Below the pieces are notes generated by a model. It was given only the letters and a program-made list of their open reading frames with translations, made no database searches and was not told the origin of the DNA. Of a stretch of 9,321 nt of DNA, positions 978 to 9,321 are shown one piece after another (position 1 is the stretch's first letter; each line of letters begins with the position of its first letter). The DNA comes from Acidithiobacillus sp. (GTDB taxonomy: Bacteria > Pseudomonadota > Gammaproteobacteria > Acidithiobacillales > Acidithiobacillaceae), in the NCBI GenBank assembly GCA_027445725.1, contig DAIAVG010000039.1:1-9321 (forward strand), in the 5' to 3' direction. The translations under genes were made by a program, and so were the position numbers.

Positions 978-1805
978 ATGAACAGCAATAACGCTTTGAT
1001 ACCGGTCACCGAAGGCACCATACAGGGACGCGCCCAGCCGCTGTGCAACGCCCGTGATCTGCATGAATTTCTTGAGGTTCGCCGGGATTTCAATACCTGG
1101 ATCAAGCAGCGTATCGCTAAATACGGCTTTGTTGAGAATCAGGACTATGTTTGCTTTGAAGATTTGAGCTCCCCCGATTTGGGGAGCGCAAAAGCCAGGC
1201 AACAGATAACGAAGGAATACCACCTCACCCTGGACATGGCGAAACAATTGGCAATGGTCCAGAACAACGAACGCGGACGCCAAGCCCGCCTGTACTTCAT
1301 CGAGTGCGAGCGGATTGCCATGGATAAGCGCGAACATAAGCCGGAATTACATGATCCGTTCGCAGAGAACCTGCCCGCCATCGATCAGGGGCTGGTCTAC
1401 TCCCAGCCGCTGTGCCTGCTCATCCAGCCGCAGGCGAGCGTGACCTGCGTCATGCCGGACGATCGCATGCAGACATTTGTATGGAGTGAGCGCGACACAT
1501 ATCACCATCTGGTCGTCGGCACGGCCCGGGATCTGACCGACATTCTGGAAGGCCGCGCGCCTATCCCGCATTACACGCTGTTTGGTGCGCCGCTGTGGTT
1601 CGACCTGCTGGAACGCCGGGTGTTGATGGACGTGGGCGATGCGCACACCCCCACCAGGGAGGATCTGCAACCGCTCCCGGCGGCCAAGAGCCTGATCATC
1701 GGGCGCGAGTTCGAGACCCATAGCTTGTACGAGAACATGGGCTATTCAGTCGCCCGGTACCTGAAACCCCGCGTGCCGGATTGCGGCGTTTACAAGCTTT
1801 TTTAA
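978..1805 (+). CDS. AntA/AntB antirepressor-domain protein with an unknown C-terminal domain
   Basis: The 275-residue product carries an AntA/AntB domain at about residues 22-115: CNARDLHEFLEV, WIKQRIAKYGFVENQDY, then KEYHLTLDMAKQLAMV and the ERGRQARLYFIECER helix. This domain is best known in phage antirepressors, which bind and block repressors, and it also occurs in plasmid and island regulators. The remaining 150 or so residues (about 125-275) match no antirepressor C-terminal domain I recognise; they are rich in aromatic residues and prolines. The ATG start has an AGAGGGA ribosome binding site at 964-970, 7 bases upstream. It is the first gene of the plus-strand run and follows the phased repeats, so a regulatory role for the element is plausible. 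No other phage gene is present, which argues against a prophage. The domain call is confident; the target is unknown. Confidence 0.85.
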   Translation: MNSNNALIPVTEGTIQGRAQPLCNARDLHEFLEVRRDFNTWIKQRIAKYGFVENQDYVCFEDLSSPDLGSAKARQQITKEYHLTLDMAKQLAMVQNNERGRQARLYFIECERIAMDKREHKPELHDPFAENLPAIDQGLVYSQPLCLLIQPQASVTCVMPDDRMQTFVWSERDTYHHLVVGTARDLTDILEGRAPIPHYTLFGAPLWFDLLERRVLMDVGDAHTPTREDLQPLPAAKSLIIGREFETHSLYENMGYSVARYLKPRVPDCGVYKLF

Positions 1806-1823
1806 CAGACGTGACATATCCAG

Positions 1824-1842
1824 GGGCGGGCAGATCCCGCCC
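1824..1842 (+). terminator. Perfect 7-bp hairpin between the first two operon genes
   Basis: GGGCGGG (1824-1830) pairs with CCCGCCC (1836-1842) around CAGAT. It starts 19 bases after the antA-type stop codon and ends 24 bases before the next start. Only TTCATAAA follows, so a full intrinsic terminator is unlikely; partial termination, attenuation or protection of an mRNA end are better fits. It may uncouple the regulator gene from the downstream genes. Confidence 0.4.
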
Positions 1843-1866
1843 TTCATAAACGGCAGGGAGAATAAA

Positions 1867-2679
1867 ATGGACACGAGCGATAACGACGAAGCCACCCGGC
1901 AAGACACCCCGAATACCGACACCCAGAATCCTGTTCACGCGCCCGTCGCCGATTCGCCCACGGTGTGCGCTGTGCGGCGGGGCAAGCTTGGCAACAAGGG
2001 ATCGGCGAAGACCTACAGTTACGCGGATATCCAGAAGCTTAAGGAGGAATGGAAGCGGATTGGCGCCGGGGCTGTCCTGGAAGACACGCTCTATGCGAAG
2101 CGGGCCATCCGTATCGCGGCGAAAGATATGGCAGATACCATTCTGGATGTCAGCATGGACCGGTCGGAGTATGTGCACAGCCTTATTCGCGGCGGTTTTC
2201 ACCGGTCCACGGCCTTTGAGATCGTCAAGCTCGCCTTTGCGATGGCGGCGGAGCGGCATGAAATCGCTATGCGGAAAATTCCAGATTCGGCCCCAAAGCC
2301 CATATCAACCCAGGCCAGAATGACTGGCACCGCAGAGTCCGGTGGTGTCGAGGCTAAAGGGAAGGCAAGACCAGCGCCCGTTCAGTCAGCAAGGCCCCTG
2401 AACGGGGACGCCCGCGAGTCTGACGGGTGGGTGTGGGACAAGGATTTGCAGGACTATCGTGATCCCCAGAGCCTCCCGAGCGGGTTTCCACGTGTGCGGG
2501 ATCGTCACGTCTGGGATCGCCGCGAAGGGGACTTTATTGACGAAAGTACACTGCCGGACGGCTATAAGCGGATTGACGATGATTGGGAATGGAGCTCGAC
2601 CATGCATGCATACAGAGATCCAAAGGGCGGCAAGAATCCCTATGGGCTGAATCTCATCGAAAACGGCAACGCAAAATAA
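1867..2679 (+). CDS. Unrecognised protein with three 26-residue Trp/Tyr-Asp repeats at the C-terminus
   Basis: I do not recognise this 270-residue protein. The first 45 residues are polar and probably disordered. Residues about 47-135 look helical and charged, with a possible helix-turn-helix-like stretch at 97-128. Residues 140-183 form a Pro/Ala/Ser/Lys-rich linker. The C-terminus holds three repeats with an exact 26-residue period: Trp190, Trp216 and Trp242; Asp199, Asp225 and Asp251; and Leu-Pro-x-Gly-(Phe/Tyr) at 203-207 and 229-233. The pattern is W-(D/S)-x5-(Y/H/D)-(Y/F)-x-D-(P/E). The start has an AGGGAG site at 1855-1860, 6 bases away. It precedes the ParA-like gene by 65 bases, so by position it may be a DNA-binding or adaptor partner of the ATPase, as StbA or ParB proteins are. 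That role is inferred only. Confidence 0.75.
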   Translation: MDTSDNDEATRQDTPNTDTQNPVHAPVADSPTVCAVRRGKLGNKGSAKTYSYADIQKLKEEWKRIGAGAVLEDTLYAKRAIRIAAKDMADTILDVSMDRSEYVHSLIRGGFHRSTAFEIVKLAFAMAAERHEIAMRKIPDSAPKPISTQARMTGTAESGGVEAKGKARPAPVQSARPLNGDARESDGWVWDKDLQDYRDPQSLPSGFPRVRDRHVWDRREGDFIDESTLPDGYKRIDDDWEWSSTMHAYRDPKGGKNPYGLNLIENGNAK

Positions 2680-2732
2680 ACGCGATCAGGTCGGTGGATG
2701 CCGATAGAAGTATGAAGCGGTACCTTTTCGAC

Positions 2733-2738
2733 AAGGAG
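2733..2738 (+). promoter_or_regulatory. Ribosome binding site that sets the start of the ParA-like gene
   Basis: AAGGAG lies 6 bases before the ATG at 2745. The reading frame is open from 2583, inside the previous gene, but that upstream part is an out-of-frame read of the preceding coding region. The protein from 2745 begins, as ParA-type proteins do, with a beta strand (TIIFSHG) leading into the P-loop. Confidence 0.7.
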
Positions 2739-2744
2739 ACGGAC

Positions 2745-3521
2745 ATGAAGCAGACGATCATTTTTTCCCATGGGGATAAGGGCGGCGTAGGCAAATCGGT
2801 GGTGGCCGCGCTGCTGGTTGATATGGCCTTGCAGAGGTTCGGCAAAGCGACCCTCATCGAGGGTGACACCACCACGCCGGATGTGCAGGGTCGCTACAAA
2901 AACTCCGACATGGTGTTGAGTGCGGCGCTCCCCCTGAATCTGGCCGGTGACGTCAGCACGGCCATCGCCAATCTGGCGGGATGGCTGGAAAATTCCAATC
3001 AAAGGGATCACACCATCACCGTAGTGAATTTGCCGGCCAATGCCAGTGAAACGCTGGACGGTCTGGCGGATATGCTGGTATCGGTCTGCGAGGATCTGGG
3101 CTATGACGTGGCGGCTTGCTACTCCATTGGCAAGGGCGCCGATGCCGCCAATTCCCTGAAGCATTCTCTGGAGAACGGTTTTCTGTCTCGCCTGGACGCC
3201 GAACGGCGTCTGGTGGTGGTGCCGGAGTTCTTCGGCGGTAAGGAATCGTTTGTCTGGTTCACCCGTCCGGATGCCGGAAATTACCGGTACAAGCAAGCCA
3301 TTATCCCCAGACTCGAGCCAACGCCTGCCGCCGATCTGATCTTCAAGGCCAGCGGTGCTTTTTCGGATATGGAACATAACAAGCCGTCCGGCTTCGGCGT
3401 GTATCACACCCACGCCCTGCGGCGCTGGCTGAAAGCATCTCATACCGCGCTCGCGCCGATCTTCCCCGATCCGGAGACGGAATACCGTGGTGTTGAGGAA
3501 GGCGGTGATGGCGACGCCTGA
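2745..3521 (+). CDS. ParA/MinD-family P-loop ATPase (TraL/MobD/StbB-like)
   Basis: The 258-residue cytoplasmic protein opens with a deviant Walker A motif, HGDKGGVGKS, with signature Lys12 and P-loop Lys17. It is followed by LIEGDTTTPD (A' motif, Asp41) and VVNLPANA at 93-100. In the last motif the usual acidic residue of the ParA 'D-x-P' is Asn95. Proteins of this family bind ATP as dimers on DNA or membranes and position plasmids or transfer complexes. The length suits the single-domain type found in plasmid transfer and stability operons, such as RP4 TraL, pTF-FC2 MobD and R388 StbB. The end overlaps the next gene by 14 bases, so the two are probably translationally coupled. That next gene encodes a divergent paralogue. 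The family call is firm; the choice between transfer and partition is open. Confidence 0.85.
   Translation: MKQTIIFSHGDKGGVGKSVVAALLVDMALQRFGKATLIEGDTTTPDVQGRYKNSDMVLSAALPLNLAGDVSTAIANLAGWLENSNQRDHTITVVNLPANASETLDGLADMLVSVCEDLGYDVAACYSIGKGADAANSLKHSLENGFLSRLDAERRLVVVPEFFGGKESFVWFTRPDAGNYRYKQAIIPRLEPTPAADLIFKASGAFSDMEHNKPSGFGVYHTHALRRWLKASHTALAPIFPDPETEYRGVEEGGDGDA
3495..3502 (+). promoter_or_regulatory. Ribosome binding site choosing ATG 3508 over GTG 3487
   Basis: GAGGAAGG lies 5 bases before the ATG at 3508, inside the end of the upstream gene. The longer open frame could begin with GTG at 3487 or 3490, but no Shine-Dalgarno sequence precedes those codons, and the 14-base overlap from 3508 is typical of coupled genes. 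Confidence 0.6.
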
Positions 3522-4293
3522 CATCAAGACCTTTCTGGTGGACGGGGGGATGCCCGGTTGCGGGCGGTCCCTTGCCGTCCGGACGCTGGCGGATATGTAT
3601 ATCCGGGGTTATCGGGATGAAAAGCTCTCGCATGGGCGAGTGCCCAAGGCGCGGGTTTATGTCTGGGATGCCTGCAATGATCCTGACACCGAAACCGGGT
3701 ACCAGATGTGGCATGCGCGCGGTGACGCCACGGTGCATACCGGGAAACTGGATAGCGAACAAGGGGCGCAGGCCTACGGGACCATCGCCAACCTCGCCTT
3801 GGAAGCCGCGCAGGATGGGCCAGTGCGCTTCATCATCGATCTGCCGGCCGTCCAGGATAGTGAATTGCTGGAGAAGCGCCTGATGAACGGCATGCTCAAA
3901 GACCTCAACACCATCCCCATCTGGATACTCACCCGCCAGGCCATGAGCCTGGGGCTGCTGGCCGACCGGGTGGATGTGATGCCGGAGATCTACCGGGGGC
4001 GGGGCGTGGTCATGCGCAACAGTAAATTTTCCTACTGGAATGATTACGTGGAGTGGTGGGATTCAGGGCTGCGGCGGGCGCTGGTGGAGCATGGTCGCTG
4101 GCTGGACCTGTACATGCTCTTTTGCAACCAGTATGCGCAGGCGGCTATGGATATGGTCATCCCCAATATGCCGTTCAACATCGCCAATGAAAAGGCCCTG
4201 GCCGATGGTTCCTGGATGGGCTTGTGGCGTATCGCCATTCAGCTTTTCACCGGCTCGGAACTGGACGAGTGGAACGTCATGGAGACGCTATAA
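3508..4293 (+). CDS. Divergent ParA-like P-loop paralogue with degenerate Walker A
   Basis: The 261-residue protein repeats the layout of the preceding ATPase. FLVDGGMPGCGRS (9-21) sits where Walker A should be, with Arg20 in place of the P-loop lysine and no signature lysine. VYVWDACNDPD (51-60) sits at the A' position with Asp54, and FIIDLPAVQ (108-116) sits at the switch II/Walker B position with Asp111 intact. C-terminal to that the protein is rich in Trp and Met and has no motif I can name. This is the reverse of its neighbour, which keeps Walker A but has Asn for the Walker B acid. It probably does not hydrolyse ATP alone and may form a hetero-complex with the upstream ATPase. The next gene starts 10 bases after its stop. 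Homology is inferred from motif positions, not from an alignment score. Confidence 0.65.
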   Translation: MATPDIKTFLVDGGMPGCGRSLAVRTLADMYIRGYRDEKLSHGRVPKARVYVWDACNDPDTETGYQMWHARGDATVHTGKLDSEQGAQAYGTIANLALEAAQDGPVRFIIDLPAVQDSELLEKRLMNGMLKDLNTIPIWILTRQAMSLGLLADRVDVMPEIYRGRGVVMRNSKFSYWNDYVEWWDSGLRRALVEHGRWLDLYMLFCNQYAQAAMDMVIPNMPFNIANEKALADGSWMGLWRIAIQLFTGSELDEWNVMETL

Positions 4294-4303
4294 GGAGCGG
4301 GAC

Positions 4304-4972
4304 ATGGAACAGGAAACACGAAGCAAACAGAACGACCGTGAACGCGAGAGAAATGACGCCTTTGACACCATGCTGGGGCGGGGCCGCCGCAAGCCGACAG
4401 ACGAGGAACGGTGGGACGCGCAGTTGATGATGGACAAGCTCAGGATGCACGACGACGACCCCATGTGGTGGTTCATCGCCAATCAGACGGTCGGTAAGCC
4501 GGATCCGGGAGCGATGATTCAGTTGGCGGAACTGGGCAAGGCCATCGAATCCGTCAACAATCTGGGCAAAACCATCGACAGCCAGACGCTGGCGGCCAAT
4601 ATCAAGTTGCTGCAGGACACGCGGACGCAGGTGGACAGTCTGAAATTCGTGCATGACGAGACCCTGAAATCACTGAACGCGATCAATGGCTCGGTGGCGA
4701 AGTCGGTGGCGATTCATGAAAAGGCCACCAACCATCTTGCGCTGTGGGCCGTCCAGAAGCTCAAGGATCACCATCTATTCTACGTGCTGCTGGTTATCGC
4801 CGCGCTGGCGAGCACCGGCTGGTGGTATGCGGACCATGCCGGCTACGCGCGGGCGGTGCATGCCGCCGAGCTTTGCCGGGCGCAGGGCAAGCCGCTGTTT
4901 TTCCAGTCCGGGCATCTGACGTGTAATCCGCAGAAAGCCAAGTCGAGTAAAGGGTCAGGAGGTATGCCATGA
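4304..4972 (+). CDS. Coiled-coil protein with one C-terminal membrane span
   Basis: The 222-residue protein has a highly charged N-terminus (1-50), a Trp-Trp segment at 55-56, a long helical, probably coiled-coil region at about 70-145, one membrane span at about 158-176 (FYVLLVIAALASTGWWYA) and a C-terminal tail of about 45 residues. The tail has Cys191 and Cys207, which could form a disulfide if it faces the periplasm. AAGGAG at 4292-4297 gives the start at 4304. The frame extends upstream to 4040, but only as an overlap of the previous gene. Position directly after ParA-like genes recalls RP4 TraM, pTF-FC2 MobE or R388 StbC, small proteins encoded after the ATPase, but sequence similarity was not established. 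It could anchor the ATPase pair at the inner membrane. Confidence 0.7.
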   Translation: MEQETRSKQNDRERERNDAFDTMLGRGRRKPTDEERWDAQLMMDKLRMHDDDPMWWFIANQTVGKPDPGAMIQLAELGKAIESVNNLGKTIDSQTLAANIKLLQDTRTQVDSLKFVHDETLKSLNAINGSVAKSVAIHEKATNHLALWAVQKLKDHHLFYVLLVIAALASTGWWYADHAGYARAVHAAELCRAQGKPLFFQSGHLTCNPQKAKSSKGSGGMP

Positions 4973-5319
4973 ACGTATTTGGAAAGCATCCGGGATTGCG
5001 TTTGGTTATGCTACGTCTGGTGGCGATCATCATCACGGTAGTTACGGCTATGGCATTTATGTCGGTTCTCTATGTCCTGCGGTTTGGAAACCCCTGGCTG
5101 TCTCATTCCCCGGTTCACGCACCACAGAGTGCTATATGGGCTTATCATGGAGTGGCGATACTGGCGCTGATATTCACTATGTTCATGCTGGTTCGCCGTC
5201 TCGATCAGCAACACCAGCTAGATATGCTCATGAGCTTCCTGATGGAGTCAGGCTGGAATTGGGCCTATGCGTTGTTGTTCACACTGGCGATGGTCGCCGT
5301 CATAGCCTTGGCTGGCTGA
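4969..5319 (+). CDS. Small membrane protein, three predicted spans, microprotein-like C-terminus
   Basis: The 116-residue protein has hydrophobic spans at about 13-36, 57-75 and 97-115. The start overlaps the previous stop as ATGA and is preceded by a strong AGGAGG at 4957-4962. Its last 30 residues (FLMESGWNWAYALLFTLAMV and onward) closely resemble the two tiny proteins encoded just downstream, sharing L-x-E-(S/P), W, A-Y-A-(L/I)-LF and a run of hydrophobic residues with I-A near the end. It therefore looks like a two-span domain joined to one copy of the microprotein unit. No family is recognised. By context it probably acts in the inner membrane together with the TraB-like enzyme. Confidence 0.7.
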   Translation: MNVFGKHPGLRLVMLRLVAIIITVVTAMAFMSVLYVLRFGNPWLSHSPVHAPQSAIWAYHGVAILALIFTMFMLVRRLDQQHQLDMLMSFLMESGWNWAYALLFTLAMVAVIALAG

Positions 5320-5323
5320 TCTG

Positions 5324-5416
5324 ATGACTGCTGCAATTGAAGAGAGGCGCAGGATGATAAAGGCTGATGCGGGTGAGACATGTCCACCAAAGCCCCGAGC
5401 GGAGGGGCGGTCATGA
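5324..5416 (+). CDS. Possible 30-residue basic peptide
   Basis: A short frame beginning MTAAIEERRRMIKADAGE fills the gap between two membrane protein genes. Its stop overlaps the next start as ATGA, and its own start is 4 bases after the previous stop. The peptide is charged, with Cys-Pro-Pro near the end. It has no clear ribosome binding site, so translation would depend on coupling. The tight packing is the only support; it may simply be spacer. Confidence 0.3.
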   Translation: MTAAIEERRRMIKADAGETCPPKPRAEGRS

Positions 5417-5553
5417 ACACCCTTGATCATCTCTGGAAATTTCTGGTCGAACCTGTCTGGTATCCGGCCTATGCGATTCTATTCATGTTGGCAATGATTG
5501 CCCTCATTGCCCACTTTGGATTGCCTTGCTTCGGCGACGACAAACATGATTGA
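5413..5553 (+). CDS. 46-residue single-span membrane microprotein (copy 2 of the family)
   Basis: The peptide begins MNTLDHLWKFLVEP and has one span at about 17-35 (YAILFMLAMIALIAHFG), then a short tail LPCFGDDKHD. A GGAGGGG ribosome binding site at 5401-5407 lies 5 bases before the ATG, which makes translation likely despite the small size. LWKFLVEPVW..AYAILFMLAM aligns with the C-terminus of the 116-residue protein upstream (MSFLMESGWNWAYALLFTLA) and with the microprotein downstream. Its stop overlaps the next gene by 8 bases. Alternatives are a hydrophobic toxin, a small subunit or regulator of a membrane complex, or a pilin-like peptide; nothing in the sequence decides between these. Confidence 0.6.
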   Translation: MNTLDHLWKFLVEPVWYPAYAILFMLAMIALIAHFGLPCFGDDKHD

Positions 5554-5656
5554 CGTTACCTGGAGTCTTCTGGCGGAGCCGATCTCATGCTGTCAGGCTT
5601 CTGCACTGCTGTTCACGCTGCTGGTGATTGCAGTCGTAGCCTGGCTCAGACGATAA
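5546..5656 (+). CDS. 36-residue single-span membrane microprotein (copy 3)
   Basis: The peptide begins MIDVTWSLLAEP, has a Cys-Cys pair at 15-16 and a span at about 19-34 (ALLFTLLVIAVVAWLRR), and ends in two arginines. The start overlaps the preceding stop by 8 bases. The only possible Shine-Dalgarno is weak, so coupling to the upstream gene is likely. W-(S/K)-(L/F)-L-(A/V)-E-P followed by A-(L/I)-LF-x-L matches the preceding microprotein, and CTGCTGTTCACGCTG resembles TTGTTGTTCACACTG in the 116-residue gene, so this is a DNA-level duplication that has diverged. The TraB-like gene begins 4 bases after the stop. Confidence 0.55.
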   Translation: MIDVTWSLLAEPISCCQASALLFTLLVIAVVAWLRR

Positions 5657-5660
5657 TTTT

Positions 5661-6917
5661 ATGACATCGACGCGCAAGATAACCGTCCCATTCTCGTTCG
5701 TGGTGCGGGCGATCCTCGCCTCACTGCTGGGACTGTCCTGGCAGTACGGACATTGTGGACCAGTTCTTTCCCTGATCCTCATTCCGCTGGTGGTTCTCGG
5801 TGGAACCAGACGGGACCGGTACGGGGTCGCCCTGGCCTATTATCTGGCCGGCAGTCACGGTCTCATAGAGGGATCGGCGTCGTTTTTCGGGCCGGGGCAT
5901 GTGCCGATGGGTATAGCGCTCTGGCTTGCCAGTTCGGCGCTGCTGGCGGCGGGATGGGCCTTTGCCGACCGGCCATGGAGAGTCCTTGCCGTGCTGGTGG
6001 TGGACGCCTTGCCGCCTCTGGGACTCTTTGACTGGCTGTCACCATTGGCCAGCGCCGGGATGTTGTTTCCGGGGGCGTCATGGGTGGGACTGCTTATGTT
6101 GCTGACGGGCGTCTACCTGTCCGCCCGGTGGATGACGCAAGGTCTTCCGATGGATCTGAAATGGCGGCATGTCTGTACGGACACGCTCTGGTTTCTGGGC
6201 ATGATGGCCGTATTGTTGAACGTCATGGCCTACATTCACCCACAGGTAACACCGAAAGGCTGGGCCGGTATGAACCTGCATCTGGGGCCGATCACGGGAA
6301 ATATGATGGCGGACATGGCCCGCAATCAGGAATGGATCAGTCAGACACAAGCCAAGACCGATTCAGCCAAAGTAGTATTACTGCCGGAGACGCTGATGAC
6401 CTGGTGGGCAGGCAATGCGGCGGAAGTCCAGCATGCCGTACCCAAGGGGCAGATATGGCTGGTTGGGGCTTCAGTGCCGGTCGGACGGGATCTGCTGGCG
6501 GACGGTATCGAGGCGGTGCGCGGCGGTGGATTTGGGGTGACAGGAAGAGGGCAGGGCGGATTGCACCCTGCAAGGGCCAAGCTGCTGTTCATCTCTCCTT
6601 TTCCGGTACCGGTATCCATGTGGCACCCCTGGTATCAGGGGCATGGCTACGTGCGTGCTGACGGCGTGGGCTACGAGGCGGGCTGGTGGGAGCCTGTGCG
6701 CAAGGTGGATGGGGTCCGCGCCTGGGCATCAATCTGCTATGATCAACTCCTGCCCTGGGTGTGGATGGAAGGCGTGGCGCAGCATCCGCAAGTGGTCCTG
6801 CTGACAAACAACGAATGGTGGGCCAAAGGAACCGGGATCCCGGAGATTCAGCGAACTACGGCGTGGGCCTGGGTGCGGTTAATGGGCGCGCCGGTGGTAG
6901 AGGCGGAGAATGCTTGA
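5661..6917 (+). CDS. traB: TraB-like conjugation protein, apolipoprotein N-acyltransferase (Lnt) homologue
   Basis: The 418-residue inner membrane protein has an N-terminal half with about six or seven hydrophobic spans (11-29, 34-48, 55-66, 82-101, 107-123, 127-153, 175-191). A periplasmic nitrilase-fold domain follows from about 205. The nitrilase-superfamily catalytic residues are visible: Glu243 in VVLLPETL, Lys307 in ARAKLLFISPF, and Cys359 in ASICYDQLLP. The late motif LLTNNEWWAKG (380-390) corresponds to Lnt 'SNDAWFG'. Lnt N-acylates lipoproteins; the TraB homologues of Ti-type transfer regions share this fold but their substrate is not established. The domain ends abruptly at VVEAENA, earlier than Lnt, which may be normal for the family. 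There is no clear ribosome binding site, so it is probably coupled to the microprotein 4 bases upstream. The downstream gene overlaps by 8 bases. Confidence 0.8.
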   Translation: MTSTRKITVPFSFVVRAILASLLGLSWQYGHCGPVLSLILIPLVVLGGTRRDRYGVALAYYLAGSHGLIEGSASFFGPGHVPMGIALWLASSALLAAGWAFADRPWRVLAVLVVDALPPLGLFDWLSPLASAGMLFPGASWVGLLMLLTGVYLSARWMTQGLPMDLKWRHVCTDTLWFLGMMAVLLNVMAYIHPQVTPKGWAGMNLHLGPITGNMMADMARNQEWISQTQAKTDSAKVVLLPETLMTWWAGNAAEVQHAVPKGQIWLVGASVPVGRDLLADGIEAVRGGGFGVTGRGQGGLHPARAKLLFISPFPVPVSMWHPWYQGHGYVRADGVGYEAGWWEPVRKVDGVRAWASICYDQLLPWVWMEGVAQHPQVVLLTNNEWWAKGTGIPEIQRTTAWAWVRLMGAPVVEAENA

Positions 6918-7191
6918 GAAACCGTTAGGCGTGCCGGTTGTTGGCATCTATACTTCCTGTATGAAGCTAAGAAAACTTTCCATCGGTCAGAAAAAACATC
7001 TGGCTACAACGGCGCGAATCATTGGTATTGGGGCGTTTGTTCTCTATGGCTTGCCGGAACTCGCCCTGAAGGCGATCGAACGCAAACAGCATGTTATGAC
7101 TAGCCATGCTGGCATATTTATCGTTGGATTGGGCATTTTTTTGATAGCGGAATTGCTTGCCGTGGCTATATTGCAAGGAGTTGATTCATGA
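6910..7191 (+). CDS. Small two-span membrane protein
   Basis: The 93-residue protein has a basic segment (19-32, KLRKLSIGQKKH) and spans at about 35-55 and 67-89. The start at 6910 overlaps the TraB stop by 8 bases and has a weak GAGG at 6900-6903. A shorter 76-residue version from ATG 6961 has no ribosome binding site but would begin cleanly before the basic segment. The stop overlaps the next start as ATGA. From here to about 7310 the DNA is visibly more AT-rich than the TraB gene, which suggests a separate origin. No family is recognised. Confidence 0.6.
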   Translation: MLEKPLGVPVVGIYTSCMKLRKLSIGQKKHLATTARIIGIGAFVLYGLPELALKAIERKQHVMTSHAGIFIVGLGIFLIAELLAVAILQGVDS

Positions 7192-7295
7192 GTGATATTT
7201 TAAAGTTACTTCCATCAATCCCGGAGATTTGGTGGCCGGCTATTGCCATGCTTATCGCGTTAGGAATTATCGCTGTTATCGGGCTACGGCATTAA
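7188..7295 (+). CDS. 35-residue single-span membrane microprotein (copy 4)
   Basis: The peptide reads MSDILKLLPSIPEIWWPAIA at its start and then has a span ending in GLRH. A CAAGGAG ribosome binding site at 7174-7180 is 7 bases before the ATG, which overlaps the previous stop. L-L-x(3)-P-x-I-W-W-P-A-x-A followed by a hydrophobic run and a basic end is the same plan as the two microproteins upstream of the TraB-like gene (LLAEP/FLVEPVWYPAYA). Copies therefore flank the enzyme on both sides. The stop lies in a 9-base direct repeat CGGCATTAA (7287-7295 and 7297-7305). Confidence 0.55.
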   Translation: MSDILKLLPSIPEIWWPAIAMLIALGIIAVIGLRH

Positions 7296-7314
7296 TCGGC
7301 ATTAACGTAAAGAC

Positions 7315-7578
7315 ATGCAACAGAACACCGTGATTACGGCTCGCGTCAAAGACCTGATTGCCGAACAGTTCGCGCTAGACCGGGACCTGGTAATCGAATC
7401 CGCCAGGCTGTTTGAGGATCTGGGCCTGGATTCCATGGATAGTGTTGAACTGGTTATGGCGCTGGAAGTGGAGTTTGGCGGTGATGTGCCGGACGGGGAT
7501 ATCACCCGTATCAAAACGGTGGGAGACGTGATCCATGCGGTAAATACCTATTTTACGCCATCCGACCCGGCGGCCTGA
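7315..7578 (+). CDS. Acyl carrier protein
   Basis: The 87-residue protein is the usual length of a free-standing acyl carrier protein. It contains FEDLGLDSMDSVELVMALE, with Ser40 of the Asp-Ser motif as the expected 4'-phosphopantetheine attachment site, and the helix III/IV pattern DGDITRIKTVGDVIHAV. ACPs carry acyl groups as thioesters in the cytoplasm. This copy ends the run of transfer-type genes, 19 bases after the microprotein stop, with only a weak ribosome binding site. No fatty acid synthesis gene is near, so it is a specialised ACP, perhaps supplying an acyl group for a membrane or pilus component made by this operon. The family is certain; the partner is inferred. Confidence 0.88.
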   Translation: MQQNTVITARVKDLIAEQFALDRDLVIESARLFEDLGLDSMDSVELVMALEVEFGGDVPDGDITRIKTVGDVIHAVNTYFTPSDPAA

Positions 7579-7854: not shown

Positions 7855-8646
7855 CTAAAAATTGTACATCAAATCAGCAGCAGTAATGGTGTTAAGCTTT
7901 TTGTAATAGCTTATCACAGGGAGCTCATTGTATGTGGCGGTATACGACATTTGCAAACTTAAAGGCCCATACAGTCGGGTTTGCACACTAGTAACCGATT
8001 CGTAAGTATTGTTGTTGGCTGTGGATAACAACGCGGTGACATCTTCCTTAAACGTCGCATGCCGGGTCAAATGCCATTCATACTCCACCGCCAACCGCGC
8101 GGCTGGGTTGGATTGATATTTCAGGCCTATGGGTTGGTCCTCCTGAGCACCGACGCCCACCTGGTAATCCAGGGACATGGTTTTGTTGAGGTGGATGATA
8201 TTACCTTCGCCGACGGTTTCCGCTAGATGGTAGTAATATCCGTCGAATGGATTGCGGTCATACCGGATATCGCCGAAAACATAGTGAACCTTCGGCTTGA
8301 AGTAATATCTGGATTGGTTTTGTAACACCAAGCGGTTGGCATAAACGGCCGTCGATGCCGCCGTGTAATTATAGCTCAGACGTGCTCGATTTTCCCAACG
8401 CTGATATTGCCAACGTATCCAATCCTTGCTATTAAGGCTTAAGGACGGGTAGGTTCCCGTGACGCTGGAGTATCCGAACGCGGCACTCCCGGACCAGATT
8501 TTTGGCTTTTTGGGTGTTTTAACCGTATTAGCCAGAGCGCATGTGGATAATGTCAGCCCAGCGATAAAAATAAAGCCCGCAATGGCTCGGGTGGGTCTGT
8601 TGCGGTTGGAGTGCGGTGTTATTTGTGAACTTTCCGGTAATATCAT
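7855..8646 (-). CDS. DUF481-like (YdiY-type) outer membrane beta-barrel protein
   Basis: The 263-residue protein has a signal peptide with a long basic lead (to residue 20), a hydrophobic core at 21-36 and a likely cleavage after Ala39 (STCALA-N). The mature part begins WSGSAAFGYSSVTGTYPSLS, the 'W.G....GYS...GN' type opening of DUF481 proteins. It is full of alternating aromatic and polar residues and ends in MYNF, the terminal aromatic typical of BAM-assembled outer membrane proteins. IRYDRNPFDGYYYHLAETVG matches the family's central 'Y.DPF.G......G.G' motif. The function of DUF481 proteins is not established; a role in envelope stress has been suggested for some. The start at 8646 has AGGAGA 4 bases upstream. 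It is transcribed against the operon to its left and lies between a gene remnant and an attC-like site. Confidence 0.75.
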   Translation of the reverse strand: MILPESSQITPHSNRNRPTRAIAGFIFIAGLTLSTCALANTVKTPKKPKIWSGSAAFGYSSVTGTYPSLSLNSKDWIRWQYQRWENRARLSYNYTAASTAVYANRLVLQNQSRYYFKPKVHYVFGDIRYDRNPFDGYYYHLAETVGEGNIIHLNKTMSLDYQVGVGAQEDQPIGLKYQSNPAARLAVEYEWHLTRHATFKEDVTALLSTANNNTYESVTSVQTRLYGPLSLQMSYTATYNELPVISYYKKLNTITAADLMYNF

Positions 8647-8830: not shown

Positions 8831-9321
8831 TCAGAGGTCATGCAAGAACTCCCGCACAATGTCCGCAAAGCCACTCGGATTGTCCTGATGGACTACGTGC
8901 CCGCCGTCAAGCGTAACGAGACGAGTATTGGGCCGTCGCGCTGCCATTTGCTCGAAGTGGTCTTGCGTCGTAATCCGGCTCTCCCTCCCACGGACCAAGA
9001 GAGCCGGGCATTTAGTCGCGAGCCAGTCGGCCCAATGGTCACCATTGAGCTGAAGCTGTGATTCAAGCATCTCGCGAGGTTCGAACGCAAGCCGCCAGCC
9101 GTTTGGGGTAGAGCGAAAGGAATCCAGGAGGTATGGCGCCAGCCGTTGCCCGATGTGTTCTTCGAGCGCTTCACGGCTTGGAAAGATACCCTCCCAGGCT
9201 AACACAAACGACGCATCAGCATCCGGAGCGGCGCCGATGTCTTCAATGATGAGCGCCTTTACACGCTCGGGATGCCACGCAGCGAACTGGTAGGCGTTTA
9301 CGCCGCCGAGCGAGTTACCCA
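8831..9321 (-). CDS. Alpha/beta-hydrolase, C-terminal part (5' end off the window)
   Basis: The 163 visible codons begin at the nucleophile elbow GNSLGG (catalytic Ser codon at 9311-9313), followed by AAWHPERVKALIIEDIGA, the usual helix and strand after the elbow. The catalytic histidine is in LDGGHVVHQDNP (codon 8897-8899). The acid position falls in LLVRGRESRI, where Glu (codon 8981-8983) sits close to the Asp expected in most family members. A cap segment rich in Glu, Trp and Arg lies between. Substrates of this superfamily range widely (esters, epoxides, haloalkanes) and none can be assigned. The true start lies beyond 9321; a GTG at 9205 is internal. The attC-like sequence immediately downstream suggests it entered as an integron cassette. 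Confidence 0.8.
   Translation of the reverse strand, partial: GNSLGGVNAYQFAAWHPERVKALIIEDIGAAPDADASFVLAWEGIFPSREALEEHIGQRLAPYLLDSFRSTPNGWRLAFEPREMLESQLQLNGDHWADWLATKCPALLVRGRESRITTQDHFEQMAARRPNTRLVTLDGGHVVHQDNPSGFADIVREFLHDL

Follow-up and report, generated by a model that had tools for sequence, protein, structure and literature searches.

One of the closest described counterparts of the genes treated here is KdpF, a membrane microprotein with one span that serves a larger complex. CydX and AcrZ are likewise presented, in excerpts of PMC4325964 and PMC7267776, as single-span microproteins in the service of a larger complex. In a 9,321-nucleotide (nt) stretch of DNA from Acidithiobacillus sp. 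(assembly GCA_027445725.1, contig DAIAVG010000039.1), the whole of which is called the window here, four short segments around a TraB-like gene resemble one another and are referred to below as the tiny family. As judged from their sequences, its free copies in the window have fewer than 60 amino acids (aa) and one membrane helix, the copy in the protein p116 being a domain and not a free peptide. The tiny family also shares with CydX, AcrZ and KdpF a gene beside that of a larger membrane protein and the ease with which it is missed, but it differs from them in its several diverged paralogues per operon, one of them inside a larger protein, in its mobile-element setting and in a partner that is putative. 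We favour, tentatively and with slightly less than even confidence, the view that the four segments are a genuine family of single-span inner-membrane microproteins, which would act as accessory helices packing into a membrane complex of the operon. The segments and their start signals are as follows.

4969..5319, forward strand: p116, 116 aa, two N-terminal membrane spans and a C-terminal tiny module
5227..5316, forward strand: p116c (copy 1), the last 30 residues of p116, from shuffle tests and a profile match (E 6.4e-18, with p116c itself a row of that profile)
5401..5407, forward strand: m46 ribosome binding site GGAGGGG, from the sequence
5413..5553, forward strand: m46 (copy 2), 46-aa single-span microprotein, an open reading frame (ORF) with relatives P0001 and in genome G006
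5546..5656, forward strand: m36 (copy 3), 36 aa; its first 8 nt are also the last of m46, and it stops 4 nt before traB
7174..7180, forward strand: m35 ribosome binding site CAAGGAG, from the sequence
7188..7295, forward strand: m35 (copy 4), 35 aa; 4 nt (ATGA) are shared between its start and the p93 stop

A sequence-only reading of this DNA had marked four segments with these positions and sizes, and the ORF list agrees. The two ribosome binding sites that it placed ahead of m46 and m35 are present, and the positions bear out its count of three copies (p116c, m46 and m36) before the TraB-like gene and one (m35) after it. For m36 no clear ribosome binding site was seen. The statement that every tiny frame overlaps its neighbours has to be dropped for m46, which begins 93 nt downstream of p116 without overlap.

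Similarity of the copies and their relatives

Pairwise local BLOSUM62 scores were compared with 5000 full and 5000 layout-keeping shuffles. The scores of m46 against p116c (84), m36 (55) and m35 (53) were reached by no shuffle of either kind. The score of 47 for m36/p116c was reached by 0 and 3 shuffles, respectively, and that of 40 for p116c/m35 by 5 and 11, while m36/m35 is weak (32; 126 and 245 shuffles). The mean over the six pairs is 51.8, compared with 22.5 (sd 2.0, highest 31.0) for joint shuffles keeping the hydrophobic layout, and none of 1000 such shuffles reached it; the possibility raised beforehand, that the alignment would be no better than that of random hydrophobic segments, is not borne out. 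The similarity of the four segments also upholds the shared sequence plan proposed for them, except that m35 lacks the E-P and A-x-A-L-F wording of that plan.

Six further segments served as controls: five came from the window, and one was the g5 end of L001, which is a contig from an Acidithiobacillus metagenome-assembled genome. Each was compared with six family members. The 36 comparisons scored 16-37, and seven were reached by fewer than 50 of 1000 full shuffles, against about two expected. Four of these seven involve the L001 g5 end, compared with P0003 (29 of 1000), P0005 (23), m46 (23) and m36 (1); the remaining three pair the window g5 with m36 (12), the middle of p116 with p116c (17) and the first span of p93 with m35 (32). 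Membrane segments in general score slightly high, yet far below the m46 pairs, all three of which (53-84) exceed every control score. The L001 g5 end (5830-5966, forward strand) is a C-terminal span directly before traB that lies above shuffles against four of the six tiny-family members. It is best against m36 (1 and 3 of 1000 shuffles) and not above shuffles against p116c or m35, and is possibly a remote or convergent counterpart of the tiny family.

When a profile was built from m46, m36, p116c and the G006 segment, leaving m35 out, m35 was recovered from the frames of the collected loci with 16.5 bits and E 0.0014, ahead of the next frame at 7.7 bits. Copy m35 is the weakest of the four, its membership resting on m46/m35, p116c/m35 and P0007.

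Among about 5.8 billion protein sequences, m46 as query found one relative, P0001, whose first 43 residues are identical to m46 and whose tail is different. A six-row profile, with P0001 and m35 among its rows, found six proteins (P0001, P0003, P0004, P0005, P0006 and P0007) among 17 candidates. P0003, P0004, P0005 and P0007 were not rows and matched at E 5e-15 to 5e-9 for the 5.8 billion sequences. P0003 and P0005 are similar to m46 and to the G006 segment, and P0004 to m36; P0006 is m35 itself and P0007 is m35 with three substitutions. There are therefore five distinct relatives (P0001, P0003, P0004, P0005 and P0007), each a whole predicted protein of 35-52 aa that occurs on between 1 and 8 contigs. 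A further protein, P0002, is a 97% identical relative of p116 (8 member sequences, 1 contig). The proposal that these tiny single-span membrane proteins form one diversified family agrees well with the shuffle tests, these five database relatives and the relative before traB in G006.

The tiny family is rare. At the order level one of 31 genomes, G006, has a convincing match, and at the family level 11 of 29 genomes were listed at E up to 1, with G006 at 9.8e-19; the ten other matches (E 0.03-0.86) were dropped as chance. The single class-level match among 369 genomes (G327, E 5e-4) was also taken as chance; it lies antisense to a long frame, which we take to be asparagine-synthase-like. A tblastn search with P0003 gave no match in plasmids and phages. 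Viral contigs were searched with TraB, the six-row profile and two DNA patterns, and the two loci obtained (8.9 and 9.5 bits) were not taken as relatives; found with the first DNA pattern, they sit inside 231- and 210-aa frames.

Scans with Pfam (ten proteins) and NCBIfam (eight proteins) gave only sub-threshold matches, the Pfam scan showing no pilin family; PHROGs, scanned with six proteins, gave weak matches only, the strongest being those of p93 (E 0.058) and P0003 (0.17), and PADLOC gave none (seven proteins). As far as such sequence comparisons go, the tiny family matched no known family in the databases searched. A sequence search of the Protein Data Bank reached E 0.75 at best for TraB and 2.8 for the tiny family. 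In open-licence literature on Acidithiobacillus with TraB, plasmid, mobilization or microprotein, the titles and abstract beginnings of the matches listed do not describe the tiny family.

Hydropathy shows one peak in each free copy (35-46 aa) and three in p116, at residues 12-30, 56-74 and 98-116. The AlphaFold2 model of m46 (mean pLDDT 71) has helices at 3-12 and 14-35. In a nine-row alignment the columns A19, L23, L26 and A30 are invariant and there is no conserved Cys. The 4-3-4 spacing of the four columns puts them on one helix face as a stripe, A-x3-L-x2-L-x3-A. The ends of m36 and P0003-P0005 are basic.

The operon, its TraB protein and the mobile element

The run of genes on the forward strand from 978 to 7578 reads AntA, g2, ParA-like ATPase, g4, g5, p116, m46, m36, TraB, p93, m35 and acyl carrier protein. 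The larger membrane-protein candidates next to the tiny frames, beside p116, are the following.

4304..4972, forward strand: g5, upstream neighbour of p116; its stop overlaps the p116 start
5661..6917, forward strand: traB, coding for a membrane protein whose C-terminal part is CN-hydrolase/Lnt-like
6910..7191, forward strand: p93, 93-aa membrane protein; its start overlaps the traB stop

The traB product is related to the TraB of Ti-type and other plasmids, matching NCBIfam PRK13825 (1-5) at E 6.6e-48 and 163.9 bits, below the curated cut-off of 500; its match to Pfam CN_hydrolase is likewise below cut-off (17.1 bits against 23.2). The catalytic triad of Lnt is Glu-Lys-Cys. In a MAFFT alignment of 13 TraB proteins drawn from the window, Acidithiobacillus-type loci and plasmids, with no Lnt among them, E243 and C359 are invariant and no Lys is conserved between them. 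The TraB family thus keeps the Glu and Cys of the Lnt/nitrilase triad but appears to lack the full Glu-Lys-Cys set, and it may be a non-catalytic or altered enzyme. A structure model of TraB was unusable (pLDDT 38.6). Relatives at E <=1e-5 occur in 505 plasmid records; in nine plasmid TraB regions the gene follows traF or a signal peptidase in four and other genes in five. No open-licence paper linking TraB with Lnt or nitrilase was found, and a term search of the accessible part of PMC12375680 gave no mention of TraB or acyl carrier.

Six of the window genes (AntA, g2, ParA-like, g4, g5 and TraB) stand in the same order in L001 and in G006 (L054), and a MobA/VirD2 relaxase is encoded upstream, on the opposite strand, in the syntenic element of G006. 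The gene order and the relaxase suggest, therefore, that the window is most likely part of an Acidithiobacillus-type mobile element. The g5 relatives are distant, with 24% identity in L001 (E 8.6e-8) and E 4.7e-6 in G006, and p116, p93, m35 and the acyl carrier protein have no counterpart in L001 or the G006 stretch at E <=1e-3. Family matches of the ParA-like ATPase are all sub-threshold, and p93 is unrelated to the N-terminal part of p116 (304 of 2000 shuffles reach their score). Matches of the window in plasmid and phage DNA collections are confined to the AntA gene, and no mating-pair gene was recognised in the window by Pfam and NCBIfam scans (ten proteins each).

Several further features surround this run. 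Ahead of AntA, at 479-687 on the forward strand, short direct repeats, variants of TCAAGGTGG and AGGTAAGTACAAGGT, recur in steps of 10-11 nt; these are possibly iterons or a region resembling a transfer origin. ParA-like and TraB-like nitrilase-related genes (window 2745-6917) are also close together in three Burkholderia/Paraburkholderia plasmids (L064, L066 and L069), where the ParA-like similarity is in the N-terminal part (BLASTP E 2e-7 to 4e-9) and, in L064, a DUF6753 gene lies between the two, hinting that the pair is an older plasmid module. The acyl carrier protein (7315-7578, forward strand), directly after m35, carries a D-S-M attachment motif. Its closest relative (L074 1489-1782, reverse strand; 49% identical, E 8e-21) is in G001 near a TrbI-type conjugation gene, the other 36 of 37 places in 28 of 29 genomes matching at 3e-15 or weaker; a carrier protein adjoining conjugation genes may be a recurring arrangement. 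Beyond the operon lie a DUF481 protein (7855-8646, reverse strand, E 1.9e-26) and, at 8831-9319, the end of an alpha/beta-hydrolase-like frame whose match is sub-threshold.

Origin of the copies and possible roles

In G006 the copy lies directly before traB, with ATGA holding both its stop and the start of traB. A single gene in this position, coupled to traB by such an overlap as is still the case in G006, was probably the beginning of the family, which would then have multiplied in the window lineage, one copy becoming the C terminus of the two-span p116, two (m46 and m36) standing before traB and the more diverged m35 after p93. Counted over 90 nt, differences to the G006 segment number 21 for m46, 22 for m36 and 24 for p116c, against 32-37 among these three window copies; the G006 segment is nearer to each copy than the copies are to one another, as expected if one copy diversified. 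Just after copy 1 is a stretch that resembles the G006 traB start at the same junction.

5323..5341, forward strand: stretch immediately behind copy 1 that may be left over from a traB start

Its score against the G006 traB start is reached by 14 of 2000 shuffles, and it is unlike the traB starts of the window itself (903 of 2000) and of L001 (943 of 2000). Both the difference counts and this stretch fit a local duplication of a unit made of the tiny gene plus the start of traB, one copy of which would then have become the end of p116. In G006 an unrelated 165-aa gene (L013 1018-1515, forward strand; no Pfam match at E 0.1) sits at the place of p116, between g5 and the tiny frame, and this spot therefore seems to take up variable genes.

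If expressed, each copy would start with a short helix at its N terminus and, beyond an interruption near a Trp/Pro stretch, continue as one membrane helix. The copies could pack against a complex of TraB, p116, p93 and possibly g5, with the A-x3-L-x2-L-x3-A stripe as packing surface, and stabilise or tune that complex, different copies suiting different partners. This accessory-helix reading, in which the helices would be made together with that complex, draws on gene position, on the overlap of frames and on the helix stripe; position and overlap also make it plausible that the tiny family serves this operon, as the sequence-only reading supposed. Of the roles offered by the sequence-only reading, that of a subunit or small regulator of a membrane complex would be the best one remaining.

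A number of observations weigh against such a role. L001, with a traB 69% identical and the same backbone order, is without any copy, its traB beginning inside the g5 end; it follows that TraB does not need the tiny family, which, given this absence and its rarity, is an accessory and not a core part. TraB was located at 30 places in 15 of 29 genomes, and a copy lies beside it at just one of these, that of G006 (flanks of up to 1.5 kb, shorter at contig ends, with the G006 segment itself a row of the profile used), and the nine plasmid TraB regions differ from the window in having no tiny family beside TraB (profile search, best 5.5 bits). The expectation of tiny frames beside TraB homologues is thus realised in G006, and fails at the other 29 places and in the plasmid regions. 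The G006 ATG with an m46-like leader is, by eye, out of frame with the conserved peptide, and for this reason the G006 copy looks broken as assembled, though intact relatives exist, as P0003 shows. The seven high controls mean that some unrelated membrane segments are also slightly above chance. Support for the stripe is marginal (about 0.05), as 237 of 5000 permutations give a conservation moment at 100 degrees at least as large (8 rows, one residue dropped from four rows to fit, an analyst-chosen span and three angles tried).

Selection gives a similarly divided picture. Compared with a simple random-substitution model (2000 runs, about 30 codons per pair), the pairs m46/G006 and m46/p116c preserve more amino acids than expected (6 of 2000 each), with no significant retention in m46/m36 (531 of 2000), m36/p116c (219), m36/G006 (704) and p116c/G006 (936). 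The dN/dS (NG86) is about 0.20 for m46/G006 and 0.72 for m36/G006, and dN exceeds dS in p116c/G006 (about 1.2). The anticipated purifying selection is therefore seen in two of the six pairs and not in four, and its support over 30 codons is weak.

The tiny proteins could instead be membrane-active type I toxin peptides that behave like Fst/Ldr, a maintenance device of the mobile element restrained by antisense RNA. Such toxins are, in an excerpt of the review PMC8309996, generally under 60 aa with a helical span and a P-x3-G motif. The tiny family fits in size (35-46 aa) and in its one helix, and resembles Fst/Ldr further in the basic C-terminal ends of some copies (m36 and P0003-P0005), in the presence of several diverged copies, in the mobile-element setting and in having one relative, that of G006, apparently inactivated. 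It differs in that the P-x3-G motif of that review excerpt is absent from all nine rows of the alignment, that the frames lie within a co-directional run of overlapping or close genes and that one copy is part of a larger protein. Moreover, no sigma-70-type promoter-like site was found on the minus strand of 4969-5660, the three Rfam matches in the window are all below gathering score, and Pfam and NCBIfam gave no toxin match save a 13-residue Toxin_30 stretch of P0001, below cut-off; an antisense RNA of a new type may nonetheless be present. We regard a toxin as unlikely.

A comparably small chance attaches to the frames being translational couplers, in which tiny upstream frames set the translation of TraB, and of the acyl carrier protein, and the peptide itself matters little. 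Several junctions overlap or have 4-nt gaps, and the lack of significant amino-acid constraint in four of six pairs would be expected of such frames. The peptide nevertheless seems to count, in that P0001 shares 43 identical residues with m46 (a protein comparison, which recent common descent could explain), close whole-length relatives exist (P0003-P0005 and P0007), helix columns are invariant and one copy runs on in frame within p116.

Entry-exclusion or immunity-like membrane proteins, diversified for telling elements apart, are somewhat less likely again. Small diverging membrane proteins on a mobile backbone, with a MobA/VirD2 relaxase in the syntenic G006 element, would suit this role, but the window has no recognised mating-pair gene in the scans described above, no exclusion family was matched in Pfam, NCBIfam or PHROGs, and the exclusion proteins known to us are larger than one-span peptides.

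That the copies are lipoprotein or pilin-like substrates of the TraB enzyme, as the sequence-only reading had also proposed, is very improbable even though an Lnt-related protein and an acyl carrier protein are encoded next to them. The lack of a conserved Cys leaves them without a lipobox, the TraB relatives keep E243 and C359 with no Lys between, which tells against an Lnt-like enzyme with substrates, and copies are missing beside 29 of 30 TraB places. Conjugative pilins (TrbC/VirB2) have two membrane helices after a cleaved signal peptide, and hydropathy and the m46 model give the tiny proteins only one. Finally, a chance likeness of hydrophobic segments that are not genes, to which the low-complexity sequence, the m36/m35 pair (which alone would fail the shuffle test) and the 7 of 36 high controls lend something, is scarcely credible given the joint shuffles (0 of 1000) and the non-row relatives P0003, P0004, P0005 and P0007; it is unlikely for m46, m36 and p116c, the case of m35 being less firm.

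Returning to accessory helices, a further-reaching and rather doubtful version would have the tiny family as a portable helix module private to acidophile mobile elements, its diverged paralogues lining up with TraB, p116 and p93 in a mixed membrane complex that sets transfer or exclusion specificity. If true, the module would be handed on either as a microprotein of its own or as the terminal part of a larger protein, and copy number and divergence would set that specificity. Standard annotation and searching readily pass over sets of one-helix paralogues within one operon, since no single frame reaches the length that they require. Here database relatives are at hand, and comparison with the syntenic element that lacks the tiny family would allow a direct test of what its gain brings about; the tiny frames around TraB genes of Acidithiobacillus-type elements merit annotation.

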